NCBI RefSeq assembly: GCF_032854445.1
Contig: NC_088301.1
Coordinates: 36,195,187-36,259,186 of the forward strand
DNA length: 64,000 bases
Reading direction: 5' to 3'
DNA from: Liolophura sinensis
Lineage: Eukaryota > Mollusca > Polyplacophora > Chitonida > Chitonidae
Shown: positions 4,419 to 57,700 of the stretch, piece by piece
Layout of the letters: the number at the start of each line of letters is the position of its first letter
Position numbering within the stretch: position 1 is the first letter of the stretch
The notes under the pieces: generated by a model
What the model saw: only the letters and a program-made list of their open reading frames with translations
What the model was told of the DNA's origin: nothing
The model's database searches: none
Program-made: the position numbers and the translations under genes

Positions 4419-17702
<13,284 letters not shown>

Positions 17703-22690: not shown

Positions 22691-22779
22691 ATTCTTCGTT
22701 TGCTACTGCTAGTATAAGCACTAGACAGCTGGTCACGTTACACCCTTCTATGGAGGCCGGGTTAGGCCATCGCCGTACT

Positions 22780-23232
22780 GGACACAGACCCCCATTACAA
22801 CTTCCGTTTTTCGGTAGGGACGATTGTAGTTCTGTGAATTTTAGGGTATAAAGTCTTTTTTTGCTCCCAGGCGTCCATTTTTGGTGCACAGGTGCATGCT
22901 TGGTATTAAAATGCTGGAAACTGTCTAAACTTTGAGGAGGTATGAGCTTTATTGATGAAAGTTTGAAACTCTGGGCGAGAGGACACAAGGTGTGAGGTAG
23001 TGATGAGGCTGCGAGTGACGTCCCCTTGGCGTTGCTAGGCACGCCTCCCAGCTGCCGGCATGGAAAGGTCCAGATTTTGACGGTCAACCTATGTCAAGAT
23101 TTTTATGGCTTCTTTCTCACAGGCTGGGCCAGGTATGCACCAAAGCTTATTGGCCACGGAATGTTTGGGACTGAGCTACAGTGCTAGACGTTAACATTGT
23201 CGCTTATGGAAAATTAATGGGGGTCCGAGGCC
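22780..23232 (+). repeat. Left 453-bp direct repeat of the transposon
   Basis: Same orientation and sequence as 26919-27370, apart from one extra T in the T-run after GGCGTCCA. It starts GGACACAGACCCCCATTA and ends TTAATGGGGGTCCGAGGCC, so the repeat by itself carries short inverted ends like a small non-autonomous element. Confidence 0.9.
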
Positions 23233-23490
23233 TGTACTGACGAAGTCACCAAAATGTGAAAAATGTCACTATGCGCTTAGATTTCGCAGCAGCCTGATAA
23301 TTTTTGGTGGGTATGTCTGTGATGTGTTTTGCATTGATTGAGCCGTTTTATAGCTTCTTGGGGCTATTTATTTTTTGAAAATATCCATTTTGATGAAAAA
23401 TCGGTAAAATGCTGTTCAGTGTAGGGTAACATGTGTATAGGCATCCTGAAATGAACAACATGCAACGTTCTAGTATTCCTACGCTTGAAA

Positions 23491-23879
23491 ATGGAGACGT
23501 TCAGAGCAGAAATTGCTGCAAAAATTGAAAGTTTCAGTGTTTATAACGAAAACGGAGCCTGTCGAGTGTGGACTGGACCATTGACGAGAGATGGTCGATA
23601 TGGCCTTGCCTCCTACAAAGACCCCGTCACACATCGATGGAAGAAGAAATACATCAGTAGACTTGTTTATATGGCCAGACAGGGGCTGTCACATTTAGAT
23701 CCCAAGCTTGATTGTGCCACAACACACGCTGTGTAAATGTGGACCACACAAGCTTGGAACCGCATTGTGTTAACAATAACAGGCAGCGCTGCTGCAACGT
23801 AGGGCGCTGTCTCGGCCATGGGCAGTATGCAAGGTGCATGCTGCATTTAAGACTGAGCAGGTTGGTTTCCCCTCATTAA
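23491..23879 (+). pseudogene. His-Me finger (HNH-like, I-PpoI-type zinc-loop) nuclease ORF, frame-broken
   Basis: The ATG at 23491 opens a frame with GACRVWTGPLTRDGRYG and KYISRLVYMARQG, the usual upstream half of a His-Me finger endonuclease of the homing-endonuclease zinc-loop type. At about 23715-23730 the frame breaks. The rest is readable in the +1 frame: LCHNTRCVNVDHTSLEPHC, then RQRCCNVGRCLGHG and ARCMLHLRLSR, stop TAA at 23877-23879. The Cys/His pattern (C-H-N..C-V-N..H..E-P..C and the later C-C/C/H/C set) is the zinc and active-site signature. The break looks like a small deletion around GATTGTGCC. These enzymes nick or cut DNA with a one-metal mechanism. Here the gene is probably dead unless the break is an assembly error or is spliced around. 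Confidence 0.65.
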
Positions 23880-23988
23880 AAATAATAAATAACAGATGTG
23901 TTTCAGATTTTGCTCAATTTCTGTCATCATTTTTTAATTTCTTTCACAAGCGACAACAGCAGTGACAAATTATATACAAAACTGGCGG

Positions 23989-26043
23989 CTACAAATATCT
24001 AGCGTATGTGTGATCTGTTGGGGTGTTGTCCAGTTGTCCCTTGGCATAGTCAGTTTTCTCTTCTGGATTTGAAAGCCTGTACTCAATGTGCTCTCGGAGT
24101 TTTCTGGCTGTATTGCGGAGTGATCTCCCCTTAACTGTCTGTCGCTTCTTATAAACCTTGTGGTACTGGTTCACCCTTTCAATCTGTTGTACTGTTTTCT
24201 CGCTCCTAGGTGAAATACTGGCGCCGACAGCTTGGAGTTTGGCAGCCGTGGACTTGTCCTGGCCATTGTTAAGTCTGTGGATTGTGGACGCCGCCCTTCC
24301 CTCCATATTTCTGCTGTAGTTTACATTCTTGGGCAAGGAGACGCTGAGTGATCTGTTGACAGCTTCGCACTTTTGAGTACTGGTGTTCATCCGGAGACTG
24401 GTGACGGCTGTCTCGCTCAACCTCATGTGCAGTACTTCGGTCAATAGTTTCCTGTCGTTGTCATCCATGTTGAAAGGGCAGAGTTTACTGGTGGATAAAA
24501 ACAGGGATCTCTCCCACCAGCTGCTGGTTTCCCCTCCGGAGCAAACCACACTGTTCCTGCGGCATTTGGAACAGTCCCCACCGTAACACCTGACCGTTGC
24601 ATCCACAACCCTGGGTAGGTAAGCTTTTATTTTCCTTATGTCACCAATGTGCTCAGACATAAGTTGAGAAAATATCAAGCTACACCTGGCCTTAACATCC
24701 TGACTCAACACCTTCTGTGCTTTCTTCCTGGCTTCCCTCGTTCGGCCCTGTCCTTCAAACATGGCATCGCTGAACTTAGCCTGGTTACATTTCTTGAACT
24801 GGGATCTACCAAGGTGCGTGGGGTCTGCTAACCGTTCGACCTCCCACAGTGGCTCGACCAGTCGGATGCCGTCCTCCACTCCCTTGGCTGACCTGGAGTC
24901 GCCGTCCGTGGTTACGTGCTTGGCTAAAACACCTTGCCTCGCCAATCCCTCGCCAATCTCGTTCCCCATATTATACTCGGACCAGGGGGCATGTGGGTTT
25001 GTGTTCGCTGTGCACTCCTCGTGTCCTCCAGGGCACTTTACTTGGAAGCCTTTTCCTCTCAGCCAGGACCCAGTCCAACACAATTTATTCTTCAGTGCTG
25101 CGGAGACAATGTATTGCTTGTCTGTTGATGTCTCCACTGCCAGGGAAATGGCTTGTGAAGCATTCTGGCCCGGTTTCTTGGGACTGGTTATGGTAATGCT
25201 GTTGTAGCGAGTGTCTGTGGCCAGATCTATTGTGCTGTCATCCTCTCCTCTTTGCCTTTTGTATGCCTTTACCTCTTCCACCTTATTTGCCATATCCTCT
25301 CTGTTCAGCTTTGCGATTGCAGATGCGACATGGTTTGCAGTGCGATGCATGTTCCTACGAGTGGCAGGCGGCACGTCCATTGCTGCAAATAGGAGTCTGG
25401 CTCGGGTGTTCCCCATTGGTGTGTCCTGGAGGCCTACTTGAAGAGCTCGGTTCACCGCTGCAGCTTTTTGGCCAGGTCTGTTGCATTCTACCTCTTTGTA
25501 GAATTTGTGGAAGCCAGATACATAGTCACAGTCACAGCACTTAAAACTGAACGCCCAGGCTAAACCCCACTTTTTCTCTGCAGCTATCTCTAACCTGGGC
25601 AGTGGACAGTGGTCCTTGGTCTCACTGTGCTCAAGCATAACTTTGTTCCATATACACACCATTTTCTGTATGTCTATGAGTCGCATTCCTTCAGCAGCCC
25701 ATTCCCGCTCATGGGTATCTCTGTCTGATCCAGCCGTGGAATCTACCTTGCACCGTCTTGGCCGCTGTATTCTCTTTGTGTCAGGCTGGTGTGTTCTTAC
25801 AGCCTCCTGATTGGGCTGGAAATCTGTGTCCATCAAGGAACACCCAGGCAGAGGATTCAGCATGTCTGTAACTGCTGACAGGTTATTTGAGCGATCCTGG
25901 GCCTTTCCAGCTTGAAATCTAGACTGTTTCCTCTTTCTGTCTCCCTTCATGGTGTTTTGGGGTAGATTGTTTGCCTTGTTAACTGTCAGACTGACCAATA
26001 TAGGTGTACTTGGTGGCTGCCTGATTGGAAATGTTAAATTCAT
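23989..26043 (-). CDS. Mutator-like transposase of the invertebrate DDE family
   Basis: An intact 684-codon ORF starting MNLTFPIRQP. The N-terminal ~150 residues are basic and disordered. A zinc-knuckle-like SFKCCDCDYVSGFHKFY lies near residue 175. The region near 300-360 (TSPKKPGQNASQAISLAVE; LCWTGSWLRGKGFQVKCPGG) leads into the candidate DDE core: Asp in VTTDGDSRSAKGV, Asp in RLADPTHLGRSQFKK and Glu in KCEAVNRSLSVSLPKNVNYS. This spacing and the closing GRAASTIHRLNNGQD motif match the Mutator-like transposase domain common in invertebrate genomes. A Cys cluster (CYGGDCSKCRRNSVVC) interrupts the core. The C-terminus is Lys/Arg-rich. No frameshift or stop, so the copy may be active. Superfamily assignment is by motif memory, not by a search. 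Confidence 0.8.
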   Translation of the reverse strand: MNLTFPIRQPPSTPILVSLTVNKANNLPQNTMKGDRKRKQSRFQAGKAQDRSNNLSAVTDMLNPLPGCSLMDTDFQPNQEAVRTHQPDTKRIQRPRRCKVDSTAGSDRDTHEREWAAEGMRLIDIQKMVCIWNKVMLEHSETKDHCPLPRLEIAAEKKWGLAWAFSFKCCDCDYVSGFHKFYKEVECNRPGQKAAAVNRALQVGLQDTPMGNTRARLLFAAMDVPPATRRNMHRTANHVASAIAKLNREDMANKVEEVKAYKRQRGEDDSTIDLATDTRYNSITITSPKKPGQNASQAISLAVETSTDKQYIVSAALKNKLCWTGSWLRGKGFQVKCPGGHEECTANTNPHAPWSEYNMGNEIGEGLARQGVLAKHVTTDGDSRSAKGVEDGIRLVEPLWEVERLADPTHLGRSQFKKCNQAKFSDAMFEGQGRTREARKKAQKVLSQDVKARCSLIFSQLMSEHIGDIRKIKAYLPRVVDATVRCYGGDCSKCRRNSVVCSGGETSSWWERSLFLSTSKLCPFNMDDNDRKLLTEVLHMRLSETAVTSLRMNTSTQKCEAVNRSLSVSLPKNVNYSRNMEGRAASTIHRLNNGQDKSTAAKLQAVGASISPRSEKTVQQIERVNQYHKVYKKRQTVKGRSLRNTARKLREHIEYRLSNPEEKTDYAKGQLDNTPTDHTYARYL

Positions 26044-26918
26044 ATTTTTCCTCTCTGTTTATATGTTGTAGATGCCAATGTGACACCCTTTGATGTGACT
26101 GTGTAGAGTAATAACCTGCTGTGAGACAACAGCAATGGTGCAGGGAGGTTTTTGCATGGTGAGGTGGTCAGCCAATCAGCAGTCATGGGGGAGGAGGGCA
26201 GGGGGGGGGGGATGCCTGGCTGGGTGGTCTTTTAAAGGGTTTCATCATGCTATTCAGTGGGGAACTGGGATACTAGTCTTTTCTTAAGTCCTGTCCACTA
26301 AAAAAGTGCCTGTGAGTAGGTCTTCATCACCTTGAGGCATTGTTCTTGCTTTGATTTTGGTCACAAATGATTGTTCCGAAATCGTGACAATCCGCTTTGA
26401 TACCCCCTACCACACTGTCAGTCAATTTTTTTCACATAGTTGCTGAAGTAAATGTCTTATATTTGGACATTTAATTGTCAGATAAATTGCCTATATTTTG
26501 ATGTATGCTTTGACACTTTTGGCTTGTAACTTTCATATTTAAAGCTGCTCTGAGTAGAAAAGTCTTCTTAAAAATGTATATTTCTCTAAATGGTTGCTTT
26601 TGAAAAGTCTAAAGTGCTCTGTCAATGTGATTTTTTTAACTTTTCTTGCAGATAAACATCTTGTCTTTCCAAAACAGTTGACCTGATGGAGATATCTTGA
26701 ACGGTATATGCACTGCAAAGCTTCAAAGTTTACCCTTCAGAGTTTTTTCACCCTGAAAAAAAGACACATGTCCAAGATGGGGGTACCCCAACTTGAATTC
26801 ATTCAACTCCAAAGTTTCTGCATGTATCAAGCCCTAATTTTGCCTGTGAGGTTCAGAAGTGTCAGGAATTGTGTGGTGCAAAAATTATTGATTTTGAAAA
26901 AAGGTGGCTGGTGTGATA

Positions 26919-27370
26919 GGACACAGACCCCCATTACAACTTCCGTTTTTCGGTAGGGACGATTGTAGTTCTGTGAATTTTAGGGTATAAAGTCTTTTTT
27001 TGCTCCCAGGCGTCCATTTTGGTGCACAGGTGCATGCTTGGTATTAAAATGCTGGAAACTGTCTAAACTTTGAGGAGGTATGAGCTTTATTGATGAAAGT
27101 TTGAAACTCTGGGCGAGAGGACACAAGGTGTGAGGTAGTGATGAGGCTGCGAGTGACGTCCCCTTGGCGTTGCTAGGCACGCCTCCCAGCTGCCGGCATG
27201 GAAAGGTCCAGATTTTGACGGTCAACCTATGTCAAGATTTTTATGGCTTCTTTCTCACAGGCTGGGCCAGGTATGCACCAAAGCTTATTGGCCACGGAAT
27301 GTTTGGGACTGAGCTACAGTGCTAGACGTTAACATTGTCGCTTATGGAAAATTAATGGGGGTCCGAGGCC
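26919..27370 (+). repeat. Right 452-bp direct repeat of the transposon
   Basis: Direct copy of 22780-23232, one base shorter. The minus-strand ORF visible in both copies (starting MTVKIWTFPCRQLGG) is read in different lengths in the two because of that single base, so it is not a gene. Confidence 0.9.
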
Positions 27371-28031
27371 TACTGTCTTTTCTCAATCCTATTATATTTC
27401 AACAACAACAACACCCCGTCGAGCATAACTCCCTTTGGTCCAACTATTTAAAATTAAATATAAACACGTTTCCATTTTCACTTTAGTGGATTTATATTTT
27501 CAAGCTAATTTGTTACTTGCAATAATCAGGAAAAATGTATTAAAGTTTCTAATTGATTTGTTTCATGTATCCGCACAAAATTATTTATTTAAAACGGTAC
27601 ATAAAGTGGTATTTGTTCAGACAAATTGACGTGTTAAGAAATGTCATTTTCCTTAAGTCCCTCAAGAGATCAAGCTCTGGTTGTACAATTGTTTGAAGCC
27701 TGTATTAACGTAGAAATTTTTAGCATTCTTTCAGACGACGCAAGTTAACTTATTGGATACCTATAAACTCTGTTGTAAAGCTATGTGGTATACCTATGTA
27801 GTTTGTCACGGCACCATGTGTAATGGATAACATTTTAAGAGCTTCATACAAGACCACATCAATATCGCCAATATATTAGTGCAATACAGTCAGACAAGCC
27901 TATACATGTATTGGTTTATGCATACGTGTTGGTTTAGGTGAATTTTAATATTTAGACAACTCCGATGGGCCTTAGTCCCTAAAATGGCGATTTCATGAAA
28001 CGAAACACTCGTCAAACAATGAAATCACTAT

Positions 28032-28197
28032 GTAAGTGAGTTTACCGCCTTTGATTTCGGTGTCCAAGCGAGATGAACACCCAGTCTTGACCGTTTTTGT
28101 CACCTTTTCGCTTAGCGACCTCTGTGACAAAAGACTGCCTCGACTGGGTGACCATCTAGCTTGAACACCTCCACCTCAGGCGGTAAATGTAACTTAC
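28032..28197. repeat. Fold-back (inverted-repeat) element, 166 bp
   Basis: The left arm (GTAAGTGAGTTTACCGCC..CACCCAGTC..TTTTTGTCAC) matches the reverse complement of the right arm (GTAAGTTACATTTACCGCC..CACCCAGTCGAGGC..TTTTGTCAC) over about 70 bases with scattered mismatches. It is nearly all stem, with a short central AT/GC loop. Looks like a small MITE; no ORF. Confidence 0.6.
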
Positions 28198-29205
28198 TGC
28201 ATTCAAGTTACCATCGATGAAATGAAGTTGAGTGCGATGACGATGACATCCCTTCCCACACAAGATGGGGGAGGCGAATGTGGCGGTCTTGGTAGGGCAC
28301 GTGGGCGATTAGCTGCCGAATTCTTCAAGACGGTTTCTGAGACGACTAATCGTTGACACATTAATGTTACGTGCTCTGGTGACAGTTCTCACGGTCGTGC
28401 CAGCGTGGAGCATGCCGATGCCGCGCTCGTTGCTTTTGTGGCATCTGTGCTTTTTGACAGAAATTGTACCGTAAGGGTGGTCTTTTGTACACCCGAGGGT
28501 AATGAGTGCCAGTGAAGACCTTACAGATCACTGAATACTACAGATAGGGCTACACCAGCGTTTGCTGGGTCAAAGTTTTAAATAGGCTTGAAATCAACAC
28601 TTTGGTTTTGAACACTGGAATGTACACTGGTGTAAGGTTTCGCTCTTGGCCACTCCTCAGTACTATATTGACAAAAATCACAGGATTCTTGTGAAATGTG
28701 GCAAAAAAAGTGTTTTTTTTTTCACAGTGTATGTAAAGTACCACTGCTATGTGTTTTAATCAGTGTCACCTAATATTATTTTTTATCAAAATAATCGCAT
28801 GAAAAATATTACATATCACACTCCTATCTTATCAAATGTTAACACATTACTGTCTATTGACCCTTACAGTCTATATTAAACTGTAGAGTACAGCACAGAA
28901 GATTCCCGTTTGGGTAGATTTTCACTCACCATAAGAAAACCACGTTTTCCAAGTGTTTGTAATGTAAAAAGTGTTTCTGACATAAAACCCACATGGGAAA
29001 ATAACAAAAGCATAATAACAAAACCCCTAGGTAGAAAAAAGTGTTATTTAAGAAACCATGCAACTATAACGTGCTTTTAACTTCTCCATTTTCCACCCTA
29101 AAAATGCTTTGGTGTTTCTATATCGCCCAGCTTGGTTGTAACCTAGATCCACGTGGAAAATTTCACTAAAATAACTGCTCGAACCCTACCTTACACAGAT
29201 TCCCT

Positions 29206-29506
29206 TTTCCACACAACACCCAAGATGTAAGTATGTGAAAGTCAGCATCGGTTAACCATCTTTCAACAGTAATCCTGCTGTTTAAACTTTTCAATGTTCT
29301 CTTTAAGAATTGCATGCACTGTAAAGAGAATGTTGGCTGTGATATAGTTTTTGTAGCCCATTACCCTGTCGGAAGTTCAAATTCCCAACATGGGGGACAT
29401 TGGTTTAACTTGTCCAATTCAAAAGTTTAAACAGCTGGATAGCTGTCGAAAGATGGTTTACCGATGATGGCTTTGACATATTTACATTTCGTGTGCTTTT
29501 GGAAAT
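29206..29506. repeat. MITE-like element with ~90-bp imperfect inverted ends
   Basis: The left end reads AGATGTAAGTATGTGAAAG..CATCGGTTAACCATCTTTC..CTGCTGTTTAAACTTTTCAA. The right end, reversed, reads AAATGTAAATATGTCAAAG..CATCGGTAAACCATCTTTC..AGCTGTTTAAACTTTTGAA. The central ~115 bases are not paired and include GTAGCCCATTACCCTG. No coding capacity. Confidence 0.65.
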
Positions 29507-38799: not shown

Positions 38800-39535
38800 T
38801 TCTCTACCAATTTGGATGAGCCATCAGGTTTGGTGCATTCTGTACTAACCTGAATGAGCCATAAGGTTTAATGGGTATACTTCACCAGCCTGGATGGGCC
38901 ATCGGGTTTGGTGCACGTTGTATCAGCCTGGATGGGCCATCAGTCTTGGGATGTGCTGTACCAGCCTGAATGGGCCATCAGGATCATTACATGGTGTACC
39001 ATCCTGGATGGGCCATCGGGGTGGGTGCACGCCGTACCAGCCTGGATGGGCCATCAGGTTTGGGATGTGCTGTACCAGCCTGGATGGGCCATCGGGTTTG
39101 GTGCACGCTGTACCAGCCTGGATGGGCCATCAGGTTTGGGATATGCTGTACCAGCCTGGATGGGTCATGGGATGTGGTGTACTGTACCAGTCATCATAGG
39201 CACTCAGGTTTGGTGGGTACTTTCGTAGCCTGGATGGGCCATTATGTTAGGAGGGTACTGTGCCAACCTGTGTTAGCCATCAGGTTTCATGGGTACTGCA
39301 CCAGCCTGGATGGGCTCTCAGGTTTTGTGGGTACTACACCAGCCTGGATGGGCCATCAGGTTTCATTGTGTACTGCACTAGCCTGAATGGGCCATCAGGT
39401 TTTGTGGGTACTGCACCAGCCTGGATGGGCCATCAGGTTTCATTGTGTACTGCACTAGCCTGAATGGGCCATCAGGTTTCGTGGGTACTGCACCAGCCTG
39501 GATGGGCCATCAGGTTTCGTGGGTGCTGTACTGTA
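38800..39535. repeat. Minisatellite, ~37-bp unit, about 20 copies
   Basis: Tandem array whose consensus is roughly CCAGCCTGGATGGGCCATCA followed by GGTTT(G/C)(G/A)TGGGTGCTGTA. Units are diverged at the left edge (GAGCCATCAGG, AACCTGAATGAGCC) and most uniform in the right half, where a two-unit higher-order pattern (GGTTTTGTGGGTACTGCA alternating with GGTTTCATTGTGTACTGCA) appears. It is open in several frames because the unit lacks stops; I do not read it as coding. Confidence 0.9.
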
Positions 39536-41146: not shown

Positions 41147-48597
<7,451 letters not shown>

Positions 48598-48724: not shown

Positions 48725-51700
48725 ATGAGGGATGAACCAGAAGGAAACAGCATTATGCAGAAGAGCAAACTGCGTCTTTATGCACCTGTGACCCCAAACA
48801 AAACATCTCTAAGCTCACATTCCATGGCGGCCGCACGCAAAAGTAAAAGACATAAGCTTACTGCAGATGACATTAATTTGGATCACATGGATGATAAGTT
48901 CCTGATGAAGAAAGCCAAGAAGGTTGACATTTCACAGACCTGCACATTCAACTCTTTGAACTTCACGACATCTACAACTGTTGGTCAGTCTGATACTTTG
49001 ATATCCCAAAGCAATGTTTCCAATGCTGGAGGAAGCCGTGCCAAAAAAATAGATATGAGCTGGGAAAATGCTGTTGAAACTGCAAGGGGTCAACCTGATG
49101 GGGCAGAAAGATCATTTCATGAGACAAAACTTTCTCGTGTTGATGAAGACGATGATGAAGGATCCATTGGTGCAGCTAAATCAGTGGAAAATGATGATGA
49201 AGAGGAAGAACTGCCAGCTGCTGAAGAAAAGAAGAAAAAGTCAATAAAGGTATACAAAGACAGAATTAAAAAAGTACAGTGAAGAAAAGATGATCTATGC
49301 ATGGAGAAATCTTCTATCTCCCTGATAAAAAGATTGATTAGCTTTATGACAATTTTAAATTCACATTTCCACCAAACTCAAAACAGTGCATGTTCTGAAT
49401 GTGTGCATATAAATTTGATAATATGAGAATTATGATTTTATCTTCAAAATTCACTTATTACTTTGAAAGGAATTTGTAAGTTTTGAAACTTCTTCAATTT
49501 TAAACTTTTTGTCTTGTTGGAGTTATTATTATTTGGATAGAAGAAAAAAAAGAATTTAACACAGTGAATTTATCCATTAAATACTAGTACTTGTTGCCTT
49601 TCAGACCCAGATAAAAACAGCTGCTAGAAGATTAAAGTCATTCAGAGTTAAAGGTGGGAAATCTGGAGGGGCTGAGCCTGGAACTCCTGGAAAGAGAAAG
49701 ATTGTGAATCCAGCATTGACAGATGATACATGTAATCCAGGTAAGACAAAACTGCACATCATTCTTCAGGGATTCATACAGGTCGATTTTAGACCCCGGT
49801 ATTCGATGGTAATATTCAGTTAAAAACTGAATACTAGAGTGAAAAGACTTAAATCTGTGTTTTTGTGGTACAAAAACTAAAATTTTTGGATAAAAACTGA
49901 ATCACATATGTTAGCTTTTGACTTTGATCATCAATGGCTACATCCGTGACAAGTCGAATTGGTCAGCCGTGATTTTGAAGACCAAAATGGCAAATAAAGA
50001 CAGCCTATTTGTGCTGATGCGGGTTGAGTAAATGTACTCGCACCGTATTGCTTTCCCCATGTACAGTGTTCAAAGACAGACCGCCATCACAGAAGATTTG
50101 AGATCAAGCGTCCTTTTAACACGTAATGTTAATCGTATAACCATCTGTCTTTAACATCTTTATGGTCAGTCAGGCAGAGTCATGTCAAACTGGCTGCCTC
50201 ATTAAATGTGCGTGTTCACCTGCATATATCAGAAGAATCACTGAACCATGTCCGCTGAGCGTGTGCAGTGTGATGTTGTGGCTTATTTACGATTTATGGA
50301 TTCTTTGCATCAACAAAAGACACAGGCATACAGTGCAAAATACTATGTTTAACAGTAAGAAGCTCGCACATATATCACTTTTTCATAGAGAGCAGGCAGC
50401 TGTTTGAATCAATTACTGAATCTACGCAGTGAATTTACTATTCATGATTTAAATTCGTTGAGTGATGGACAGGTGTATATCTCTTAAGGCCGAGTTATCA
50501 TTGTGACAAATTGAAACTGATTCATGTCGATCTTAAATTTTGTAGTAACAGGCTCAAAACGGAAGATTTTTGCATTAAACCTATGCCATCAAAAAATCAC
50601 CAAGAGTGCCCCCTTTTCAAGTTGGCATCAGACTATGTTTTTCCCAGCTTGAGGGCACCTACCCACCCACTTGAACCTCTTATTTTGGCACCAGAAATGT
50701 ACTGTTTGACACATCCCATATTAAGAAAAAGTACAGTCAGGTGTAAGGATAATTTTTCTCCGGTCAAAAGTGTGCCAGGATCATGTAATTGGCAAGATTG
50801 TTTGAGCTGTTACTGACAGTCACCAGCCCTATTATGCTAAGGAAACTTCGCTGGATAGGAAGTGTATCCTTTTAGTTTTACTGATACATTCTTGCTATAT
50901 AAAAACAACGGTGGAGGAACTTGAAAGGGCAGACCTGTGCATTTTCCAAATCCATACAGTTAAGTTCCTTATACAATGACAAGGCTGATATTTCACCCTA
51001 AAACTTCAAACAACACAACATGATCTTGACTCCCCTCTTTCTGAAGTGTAAGTGTGCTACACGCAATGTAGATGAGGTCAAAGCTATTCAATAATCTGAT
51101 GTGAGGCTCCCTTGGGTGTTTACAACATTGCCAAGCATACACTGTACCTGTATGGAGGATTTTCTAGTGTCTCTTTGTATAACATAACAACCAACAACTG
51201 ACCATGGATGGTTTATAACTGTTTTATTATAAATATAAAATCTCTGATCAGGAGCCCAGTTTTTGTTTTCGTATGTGTTGTTTATTTTGGATGATATATG
51301 CAGGGTTTATATCTGTTTCATTATGTACCTCAAGTCTGAGCAGGAGAAGCCTCATCTCTGTATTTTGCACAGGTTTACTTTTGATATAATGTTTGTTAGT
51401 TCCTCTCTTTCTAAATATAAACTGACGGCCAAAAGAAACTTTACAAAGAATTCAAATCAATGTATTTTGCCTGGGCAAAAAACAGGTTTAATATATTGAA
51501 AAGACCAATGACTTTAGATAATGAAAATCTTGAGTAAGAACGGACAAAGCAGCCCTCAAATCATTTTACAAGTGAACAAACAGAGCAGGGTTAACAATGG
51601 ACAGAGTATACAAAAAGTTGATTATTTTTAAAATCGGTCAATATCAAAACCAATGAATATCGCGTGTGGGCACTCTTTGCTTCAAGCCATGCAGTAACTC

Positions 51701-54700
51701 TCCGACGCATAGAAAAAGATGACGTGGCCTTCGTTCCCATTCATCTTGGAGAGCAAACGGCAGTTCTAGTCCGTTGGCTGCAAGGTGTGGCCGTTGTCTT
51801 ACTTGACGACCCATGATATCCAAAAGGTGCTCTATGGCGGTCATATCTTGGGAGCTTGCAGGCCACAGCAAGACGTTGACTTTGTTGGTGTCCAGGAAGT
51901 TCTGCACAACTCGAGCTGTATGGGGTCTGGAGTTGTCATGCTGGTACAGGACACCATGTGGCTCCTGTTGAAGGAATGGCAGGACAGCAGGACGAAGAAT
52001 TTCATCCACGTAATGTTGAGCTGTCAGGTTCCCGTAGATGATGAACAGTGGTGTCAGTTCCTCTCCACAAATCACACCTCACACCATCACGCTGCCACCA
52101 CCAAACGGTACCACCCCCTGGACTCATGATGCAGCCGTTTGTTCGCCTCCTCGATGGTAAACTCGCTATCTGCCATCGGCTCGGAACAGGCAGAAGCAGC
52201 TTTCATCTGTGAAAACAACACGTTGCCAATCACGTTGCTGCCAGTGGCATACAATTCGAGCTCATCCCAACCTCTGGCGACGATGTTCGGCTATCAACAA
52301 CTGTCCTCTGAATGATCAATAGGGCCTAATTCCGTGAGCCATGAGCCTCCTGGACACGTTCTGCCGACTGACCAGGTGACCTAAAGCACTGATTGACGAT
52401 GATGTCACTGTCAGGAAGCAGTTCCTCAGGTGTGAGGTGCTCAGGTACCCGTCTTCTCTGGACGTAGTTACCGTAGGCCTGCCTGTTCTTGGCCTGTCGG
52501 ATGTCTGTCCTCTCTGTAACGTTGCATCAAGTTTGACAGTTACACAAGAGCAGCGGAAGGTCCTTGCAATGTGGACATGGGTGGCTCCCCTGGATGCCAT
52601 ACCCAGGGCCCTCTCGCGTTGTTCTGGAGTCAATCGAGGTATTACTTTTGGGATTTTTAGTCAGTGTGCAGCACATTGTGTTATTTATATACACTTATTA
52701 TTATTATTGTGATGTTCTGGCCATCCATGGGTCACACGATTTTTCAACTTTCTTCGTTGTCTCAAAACAAATTCGTGTGGGCGTATATGACGCTTGTGGC
52801 ACATGGGAATATGCTTCGTACTATGTTTTCCTGCAATAATTTGGTATTAATTTGCTGAAAAGGCAAAAGGTTATACTTAACTCACAGAGTTGTAAAGTTT
52901 CTTTTGGCGTCAGTTTATAACAACCAACAACTGAACATGAATCATCATGGTGTATAACTGTTTTATTATACATTGCATATCTCTGATCAGGATAATATAC
53001 TTGTAAAAGTAGGTGTATGTACCAATAATAAAATCATGATCAAAATGAACCTCAAATGAAATTAAACTTATACAAGTAAACTCATACTGACCAAAAAAAA
53101 ACAACATAATTTTGAGTTTCCAGTCCTAAATACTTGAACTTATATTAATCCTTGTTCATGTAAATACAAGAAACACATTTACTGATGTAAAATAGACATG
53201 TACAAGAGTCATATCACCAAAGGGAAAGGTACATCAAAATATGGTTTACATACACAAAAACATATTGAACGTTTTGAGTTAAATTTTTTTTAAAGCATTA
53301 TTTTGATTTATGCCCCGTAACTAACAGGACTTCTAGTAAATTCCTGAAGAGAAATACATGTATACAGTTTGGCAAACAGTAAATATTGCACATTCAACTT
53401 TTTTCTGTAATGGGTACATGGGATTTTTTTAGTGAAAGAATTAAATATACATTGTATGTGCAGAATATCATGGCATCAAAACCAGAAATAAAATTTTCTG
53501 TTCCTTTTCTAAGGATGTCAGAAAACTAGTCTTTACAGAAGTTAAGCATGTATATTAATTATTTGGTTTTTCTAGAATCACCAAAGAAGAAACTGAAGTT
53601 TGAGGAAATGACCAGGAAAGAGAGGAAAAAGATGAGACGGCTAATGAAAAACAACAGTGAACTAATAAAGTCCTCTAAGAATGTCTGGGAAGAATTAAGA
53701 AGGTACATGTAACACTTAAGCTGCTTTTGTAAGAAATCCGAGATACATTTCATAGGTTTTGATGCAGTCATTAATTATGTTACCATAATAATTAAATTTT
53801 TCTAACCAAATTGTTTTCTTTGACTGTAGACATGATCTAGCTGAGGAACGCAGAATTGAGCTCTGTGATGTTCTGTATAAGCACGTCAAAGGAAAAGTGA
53901 AGGAGGTATGTTGTCTTTCATATATGATGAAGAATTTGTAATTTGATCTTGAATGCAATAATACATTATTTCCATTAAATTTTAAAGTTTGTCTTTTGTA
54001 TGAGGTATCATTAGACGTGCAAAATTATATTTTCGAACTGATCACAAATTTGTTTTAATAGTGTGCGTCCTTTTTAATGGAATATTGTCACCTAAAGTTT
54101 AGCATTTTACAAGTGACACATATTGCTTGAGTCTGATTTATCCACATTATTGGACTACAAAGAGTTATTTGTGAAGTTTGATTAATTTTTATCAAAAGGC
54201 TTAAGTGTTGGAATAAGCACTGTAATTTTACAACCTTTCGTAGACTGATAAAATTATACTTATGGTGAAGCCCAGAAATTATGAAAGCCCTGTAGTTATG
54301 TATCCAAAATCAAATTAAAAACCTGCATAAATTCCACTAAAAGTTGCTCTTTCATATGCGAAAAGGTTGCAGAATTAGGGTAGTATTATATTAAGGAATT
54401 TGTTTTCTAAAAGTGCAGTTTTGCATATTCAGGTGAAATACGGGTTATAAAAGTGGAAAAGGCCTTCTAGAAGTGCAGTTTTACATTTGAAAATAAGGTG
54501 AAATACTGGTTATAACCAGTGGAAAGAATGTTTGCTTTGGGGTTGAGAGGACAGTAATAAATTTGTTCATAACTCTTACAGATGGTATTTGCACATGACA
54601 CAGCTAGAGTGATTCAGTGTTTGATTCAGTTTGGTGACCCAGATCAGAGGCAAATGGTATTTGAAGAAATGAAAGGTAAGGAATGAACAGATAACTGTAA

Positions 54701-57700
54701 AATTCAGATTGTATTTTCTTATAGTGGTGCACGTCATTATGACAGCGTGCTTCTCCACTGTGTTTGGCAAAGTATTAGATTTAAATGGTGTGTTGTTTTA
54801 ATTTTTTCTTTTATGAAATTGTACAGAATTTTGGATTTATGTTTTTACAACTATTAAACAAGAAAAACTGTTTTTGAAAGCGGTATGTATTTTGAATTTG
54901 AAAAAAATTGAAAATTGCTATCAGTAAAGATTACCCAACTTTTACCCAACCCTTTTTCAGATCAGATGGTTCCAATGGCAAAATCCAAATATGCAAAGTT
55001 TGTTGTAAGAAAAGTTTTAAAATATGGGTAAGTTAGGACATGTAGTGGCAAGGTGTTATAACCTAATATTGTCCAGTAACATTTTATTTACTGGTGCATT
55101 ATTTGTGCATAACTTGGATAGTGTTGAGTAATAATAGTATATTGAGTAATTATGGACCTTTGTATTTATATTACAAAGAGAAAGATAAACATACAGGTGT
55201 AAGGTAAAATACAGCTGCTAAAGCAGAGATGCCTGGGCTCAAGCCAGTATTGCTGGCCTAAGTGGTGTCACTTCCAGTTACCCGAATGATGTCTATGCTA
55301 AACAACATATGATTATACTGGTTTATTATGGAAAATCGCATAAAATTTAATACATGCCCACATTTGGGATTGTTCAAGATGGCTGCCAGAAGTATTTTGC
55401 AATTTAAAATTTGTTGTCAAACTCTGAACAATTATAATAGGGCTTCTAGCCAGAGGCTTAAACCCCTAACTATGTTTATCAGAATGCAGCAACAAGATTT
55501 AGGCGTGGAAGGCAAGGAAGCTGAAGTTTGTGAACATTTAAAACAATTCATAATATTTTTCAGGACAAGACCACAAAAAAATTTTGTGTTCAAGGCATTT
55601 CATGGGAATGTTCGCAAATTGATTAGACACAAGGTAAGTAGTTGTGTCCATGTAAATAAAACATCATCATGCTTAGAGCGTATTCCATGGAAACATCAGA
55701 CATTTTCAGTTCTCTTCTTTCATGTATATTTAAATACCTTCCTGCAGTTCGTTATTTAGAAATAAATGCCAAAGTGATTACACGTATGACAGGTTGCCCC
55801 AGTGTACAAAAATAATGCAGTTTCTACATGGAATGCATTTCTTAAATTCATCATCAAAAAAAAGACAAACAGTGGACTTTGGTCTCTTATTATATAATAA
55901 ACTCATCACTTTTACTTCGTTATCTGTATCAAAGGTTTGAAATGGTTTGTTGTAACAGGAAGCTGCAGAGGTCGTGGAGTATGCTTACAATGAGTATGCC
56001 AATGCCAGCCAGAGATTAGCTTTGCTTGAGGAGTTCTATGGGCCTAGCTTTATCCTATTCAAGGTAAACAGATGTTTATACTCCTTATCTGTCGGTCACT
56101 GTAAGTTCAATTCCAGCTCATGCTGTCTTCCTCTCCAGTAATGCATGGGAAGGTCTGCCAGCAACCTGCGAATGCTCATAGGTTTCTCCCGGGCTCTGTT
56201 CGGTTTGCTCCCACCATAATGCCGATTTTGAGTACAGCGTAAAACACCAACATGACATTTATTATATACCTGTGGCTGTCACTGATGTGATACAGAGGCA
56301 TTCTGAATTTTTCCAAAAGGGACTCCATGGCTCAGTTGGTTAGCATAATGACCCAGGAGCCTCTCACCAATGCGGCTGCTGTGAGTTCAAGTCCAGCTCA
56401 TGCTGGCTTCCTCTCCGGTATTACCTGAGAAGGTCTTCCAGCAACCTGCAGATGGTTGTGGGGTTCTCCTGGGCTCTGCTTGGTTTCCTCCCTCAATAAT
56501 GCTGGTCGTCATCGTATAAGTGAAATGTTCTTGAGTACAGTGTAAAACACCAATCCAATAAAATAGATATATTTTTCAGTATATGGATCCTGTGAAAACA
56601 GGGATTATTTTCAATGTTTTAAATCAATACGCCCTCTTCCGGGTAAAGCCCAAACTAACTCCCGAGTTTGGTTTTCAAGGCCAAAACTGCCCAAACTTTG
56701 ATTGTGGCTCTCAAATATATTTGTTTTGTGCATCAATCATGGTTAATACTACGACGTTGTGGTATTTATTAAAGCTGAGTGAAAATATGTCAGACCTCCT
56801 TGGTGAAAATCCTTAACTTTGCCACCTAAGCAAAAGGTCGCATAGATAAATGTTGACATCTTGATCAATCCCATACAGTCGGTGATCTAATCTCGTTTCA
56901 CTCATGGTCAATGAAATTTGTCCCATGAATCCAAAATTTGCCATTTTCATTTACCTGGCATCTTTCATCTTCCCATCTGCTGAATGGAAACCGTAAAAGT
57001 AGCAAACATATCCAGTGCTTACACATTCGTGACAGTCATCAGTTTCATAATTAATTTCTACTTGTGGGCCATGATCAATGTTCACGGCTCATTTTGAAAA
57101 TTTCCAGTGGAGTCACTGGAGCTACAACTACATATGGTCAGTGACTACACGGCCGCACGAGGATGATATTTTTAATAAGTGCAGACTACCTGTTTTAGAG
57201 CCAAACGTTTAGTCCAGTTATCATCATCTACTGTAGCCGTTCCTTTCAAACAAGATGTGATTTTATTCCATACCATACGTTGTAACTTAGCTAGCATAAC
57301 CCACGTCTCTCTCGCGTGACAATAGAACGTGAGGGGATTCCTGTGGCGTAGGGATTTGACCGTGTTCGGCAGTCTTGTAATGGCCTGAGCTCATGAATGT
57401 TCTTGGACAACTGTAGCTGATACATCATCGTGGATCACACACTGTTAGGATAGTCTCTATAAATAAATATTCCTTGAATGTTAATTGTTGTAACAGCAGG
57501 ATGTTGTTGTGGCACAAACTTGCATAGTGCAATGCATTGTTCATTCATATTTCTATCATTACTACTCAGTAAAGCTATTATATAATTTTCTTTTGATAAT
57601 GTATTCTTGCCATCATAAATCTGTATGCATCAGTGATTTAGTGTTTACTATATAGTTTTGTCAATTATAAAAACACAAATAGTGCCATAGGGTTAGGGTT

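Follow-up and report, generated by a model that had tools for sequence, protein, structure and literature searches.

Among described systems, the closest to the element reported here are the KolobokP transposons of Kojima and Bao (2022, Mobile DNA 13:24; PMC9587614), a lineage known from 228 families in seven animal phyla and richest in bivalves. In the published description, KolobokP elements consist of an internal region (INT) between two long terminal direct repeats (LTDRs) of approximately 450 or 660 bp, each of which has its own terminal inverted repeats (TIRs) of 11–18 bp, perfect or imperfect. In the INT, the gene for a DDE transposase is accompanied by one for an I-PpoI-like His-Me nuclease, which lies downstream on the opposite strand. 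The ends conform to 5'-RR...YY-3', the target-site duplications (TSDs) are mainly 3–4 or 4–5 bp long, without a strong target preference, and the transposase has a CCHC finger downstream of the first D, a C/DxxH motif and a zinc finger lying between the second D and the E (PMC9587614). Autonomous families of oysters span 4,022–4,748 bp; most KolobokP families encode both proteins, with a few, such as KolobokP-1_LG and KolobokP-1_SaGl, having no recognizable nuclease. Solo LTDRs and multimers have also been reported for KolobokP, and the nuclease has been proposed to induce unequal crossover (PMC9587614).

In the 64-kb stretch of Liolophura sinensis contig NC_088301.1 analysed here (the window), an element of 4,591 bp, located at positions 22780–27370, displays the same organization. 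It shares with KolobokP the LTDR-INT-LTDR layout, with LTDRs of the ~450-bp class and their own TIRs of up to 18 bp, the RR...YY ends and a TSD (TACT) within the range of 3–5 bp, as well as a DDE transposase with two zinc fingers and, as judged by eye, the motifs in the reported order. An I-PpoI-like nuclease gene, for which the match is partial, lies downstream on the opposite strand, and the total length falls within the 4,022–4,748 bp of the oyster families. The element differs from the published description in that the nuclease frame is broken in this copy. Judged by that description, rather than by an alignment or a tree, the element is best regarded as a single, probably young KolobokP insertion (LTDR-INT-LTDR), a reading to which we assign a probability of about 0.96. 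A preceding sequence-only reading of this DNA had not associated the combination with any one known family and had considered it a candidate for an undescribed system; given that the architecture is that of KolobokP as published (PMC9587614), the element is of a kind already known rather than undescribed. The recurrence of the transposase-nuclease pairing, which the same reading had raised as a possibility, has in effect been demonstrated by the 228 KolobokP families, most of which encode both proteins (PMC9587614).

Terminal repeats and the inserted unit

Comparison of the repeats showed that the coordinates proposed for the element by the sequence-only reading are exact to the base. The left LTDR (22780–23232, + strand; 453 bp) and the right LTDR (26919–27370, + strand; 452 bp) enclose an INT of 3,686 bp (23233–26918). 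Each LTDR starts with GGACACAGACCCCCATTA and finishes with TAATGGGGGTCCGAGGCC, so that left and right copies carry the same imperfect inverted ends, in which 15 of 18 positions are paired, and the termini, GG...CC, are of the 5'-RR...YY-3' type. The tetranucleotide TACT adjoins both outer ends of the element, directly outside the left end at 22776–22779 and directly outside the right end at 27371–27374. Equal 4-mers at the spacing of the element are encountered at 289 of the 59,401 window positions (0.49%), and the TACT pair is likely a 4-bp TSD. Its location outside both ends indicates that the composite, not a single repeat, was the inserted unit. The inner junctions (TGTACT... and ...GTGATA), unlike the outer ends, are without a TSD of their own, which favours one composite over two insertions.

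The same borders bear on whether the structure is a chance nest, in which a transposon of the MuDR or Kolobok type, a stray nuclease gene and two separately inserted copies of a 453-bp non-autonomous element came together. Although the repeats, being equipped with inverted ends, could each move independently, the lack of TSDs at the inner junctions, the single TSD around the whole composite, the near identity and direct orientation of the repeats, and the recurrence of the same arrangement in 228 families (PMC9587614) all speak against such an origin, which we consider extremely improbable. The view of the locus as one mobile element built like a composite transposon, with LTDRs that have their own inverted ends, is borne out.

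The two LTDRs are distinguished solely by one T in a T-run, with 0 substitutions over 452 aligned bases. Because the LTDRs are free of substitutions and the transposase ORF is open, the copy appears to be young, suggesting a recent insertion; gene conversion between the LTDRs would yield the same substitution-free picture. The 64-kb window yielded no second instance of the LTDR, the INT or either protein, a single weak match of 19 residues (E = 0.32) having been set aside, and no solo LTDRs or multimers. A 30-base word from the LTDR had no relative in viral contigs. A palindromic homing site was sought in the LTDR by considering even- and odd-spaced palindromes with arms of 6–10 nt and spacers of 0–6 (35 settings, 60 dinucleotide shuffles each); none of the settings reached P ≤ 0.1, and thus no candidate homing site within the LTDR is favoured. 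A shorter perfect palindrome, TTGAC-G-GTCAA, was noticed at position 23077.

The transposase and nuclease genes

The DDE transposase is encoded on the minus strand by an open ORF of 684 aa (23989–26043); stop-free frames of the element reach 689 codons, whereas none of 200 mononucleotide shuffles gave one longer than 214. Residues 120–497 match the Pfam family PF20700, ‘Mutator-like transposase’, with an E-value of 1.5e-77. Following the description in PMC9587614, we placed the motifs by eye at D277, C322/C337/H341/C344, D380, D407xxH410, C486/C491/C494/C501 and E560, whereby the CCHC finger follows the first D, the second zinc finger lies between the second D and the E, and E560 is located beyond the Pfam match. 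A single-sequence AlphaFold model of the protein was too poor for checking the triad (mean pLDDT 36.2, pTM 0.22). Searches of viral and bacterial/archaeal contig collections yielded no relatives of the transposase, a result that says little on animals, and a 75-aa part of the protein had none in viral contigs.

The term Mutator-like, applied to the transposase by the sequence-only reading, corresponds to the Pfam label of PF20700. The domain name, together with a TSD that is not TTAA, could also be taken to indicate an element outside KolobokP, either MuDR or an unnamed lineage, in which the same parts were gained independently. However, the zinc finger between the second D and the E and the CCHC motif fit KolobokP, as do the length class of the LTDRs and the His-Cys box nuclease, making independent gain of the same parts hardly credible.

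The nuclease gene is located on the plus strand, downstream of the transposase gene and convergent with it, and is represented by two frames that are out of register. The downstream frame (23712–23876, + strand), which begins LCHNTRCVNVDHTSLEPHCVNN, covers the zinc-binding and active-site region, with the pattern LCHNTRC...H...E....N. This 55-aa piece matches the Pfam family of the homing-endonuclease zinc-binding loop, PF05551, with an E-value of 4.7e-4 and 20.8 bits, below the gathering score of 27. In a two-sequence comparison with I-PpoI, 13 of 27 residues are identical (E = 5e-5 for that one comparison), with L99, C100, C105, H110, E114 and N119 of I-PpoI (1a73_A chain numbering) matched in register. 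I-PpoI was not among the matches in a PDB-wide search with the 55-aa piece; PDB searches with both nuclease pieces yielded weak unrelated matches only (E = 0.28 or worse), and the 55-aa piece had no relative in viral or bacterial/archaeal contigs. The upstream frame (23485–23736, + strand) runs for 83 codons to its stop, with the putative nuclease reading extending only to about 23712. It produced no meaningful Pfam or PDB match, and its tentative assignment to the nuclease is based on its position and on the downstream piece.

The Ser-His pair that in I-PpoI directly precedes Leu99 (S97-H98) is missing from the LCHN frame, which has a stop in that place. Given the missing pair and the change of register between the upstream and downstream frames, no active nuclease would be expected from the copy, which is probably nuclease-dead, with the frame broken beside the active site. 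The convergent His-Me nuclease noted by the sequence-only reading is recognizable in the insert as I-PpoI-like, but the gene is not intact. An assembly or sequencing error, with the gene being intact in the animal, is the less likely explanation of the break, albeit one that carries some weight: a damaged gene is somewhat unexpected in a young copy with substitution-free LTDRs and an open transposase frame, and data from a single genome cannot separate an error from a true lesion. Nevertheless, the lesion is more than a homopolymer frameshift, given that the Ser-His pair before LCHN is also gone from that frame.

Neighbouring repeats in the window

The window has a G+C content of 38%, and Rfam and tRNA scans of its 64 kb gave no match. 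Just to the right of the element, at 28030–28200, there is a strong imperfect hairpin with 58-nt arms that are 74% complementary (DNA fold of −43 kcal/mol, z = −9.15), perhaps a small non-autonomous inverted-repeat element. An inverted repeat at 29217–29495 has 79-nt arms, 84% complementary and 121 nt apart. At 41344–41578, two perfectly complementary 106-nt arms are separated by a 23-nt spacer, a structure that represents either a palindrome of recent origin or an artefact of the assembly. A minisatellite with a 38-bp unit occupies 38813–39531 (~19 copies, 74% matches), and a fragment of a DDE_3 (Tc1/mariner-type) transposase is found at 51644–52075, with a match below gathering (E = 1.1e-5). 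Finally, a dispersed SINE-like repeat is present at 2767–2992, 11325–11479, 15289–15437, 43727–43928 and 56078–56583. It contains GGCGTAAAACACC, which we take to be a word of molluscan SINEs and which has three exact and two one-mismatch sites in the window, against 0.11 expected; a literature search on molluscan SINEs returned no paper matching all terms.

Proposed movement and relation to known systems

The movement of such an element can be envisioned as follows. The transposase would recognize the short inverted ends. Use of the outermost pair would move the whole 4.6-kb unit and leave the 4-bp target duplication, and use of the pair within one LTDR would mobilize a lone LTDR in the manner of a small non-autonomous element. 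In turn, the His-Me nuclease might cut within or at the LTDR, leading to recombination between the repeats and thereby to multimers and solo LTDRs. This role of the nuclease in KolobokP is one that both Kojima and Bao (PMC9587614) and we infer, and the recurrence of the architecture, the excision of LTDRs and the multimers are known from their study. A role of the nuclease in target-site choice, suggested by the sequence-only reading, is argued against by the reported lack of a strong target preference in KolobokP (PMC9587614). From the present copy, only the transposase could act, because the nuclease gene is broken at the active site. With its transposase frame open and its nuclease broken, a young copy of this kind provides a modest natural experiment on nuclease function. 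If the lesion predates the insertion, the nuclease would be dispensable in cis for transposition and would serve another step, for instance, recombination between LTDRs, as in the 2022 model (PMC9587614); that this copy moved recently with its nuclease already dead is, however, rather doubtful.

Comparison with other systems places these features in context. The Kol0, KolobokE, KolobokH and KolobokD lineages share the transposase class with the element, and KolobokE and KolobokD also have the CCHC zinc finger in common with it, but these other Kolobok lineages are described as carrying other accessory proteins and no LTDRs (PMC9587614), in contrast to the element. The classical Kolobok TSD is TTAA, whereas that of the element is TACT. 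With I-PpoI, a His-Cys box homing endonuclease of a group I intron, the element shares the LCHNTRC motif and the following H, E and N positions; I-PpoI is intron-encoded and its active site is intact, whereas the nuclease of the element is transposon-encoded and its frame is broken. The likeness to MuDR (Mutator) lies in the shared Pfam label. MuDR generates long TSDs of 8–11 bp, and no TSD of this type was seen at the element. Furthermore, MuDR is described as being without a zinc finger between the second D and the E (PMC9587614), whereas in the element C486/C491/C494/C501 are located between D380 and E560. Bacterial composite transposons resemble the element in that a coding middle is flanked by two end elements, each of which has inverted ends, but the transposase of the element sits in the middle of the unit and not in the end elements. 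The Liolophura element, in which a DDE transposase is joined to a homing-type nuclease, provides a clean example of the published KolobokP lineage that is useful as a control.
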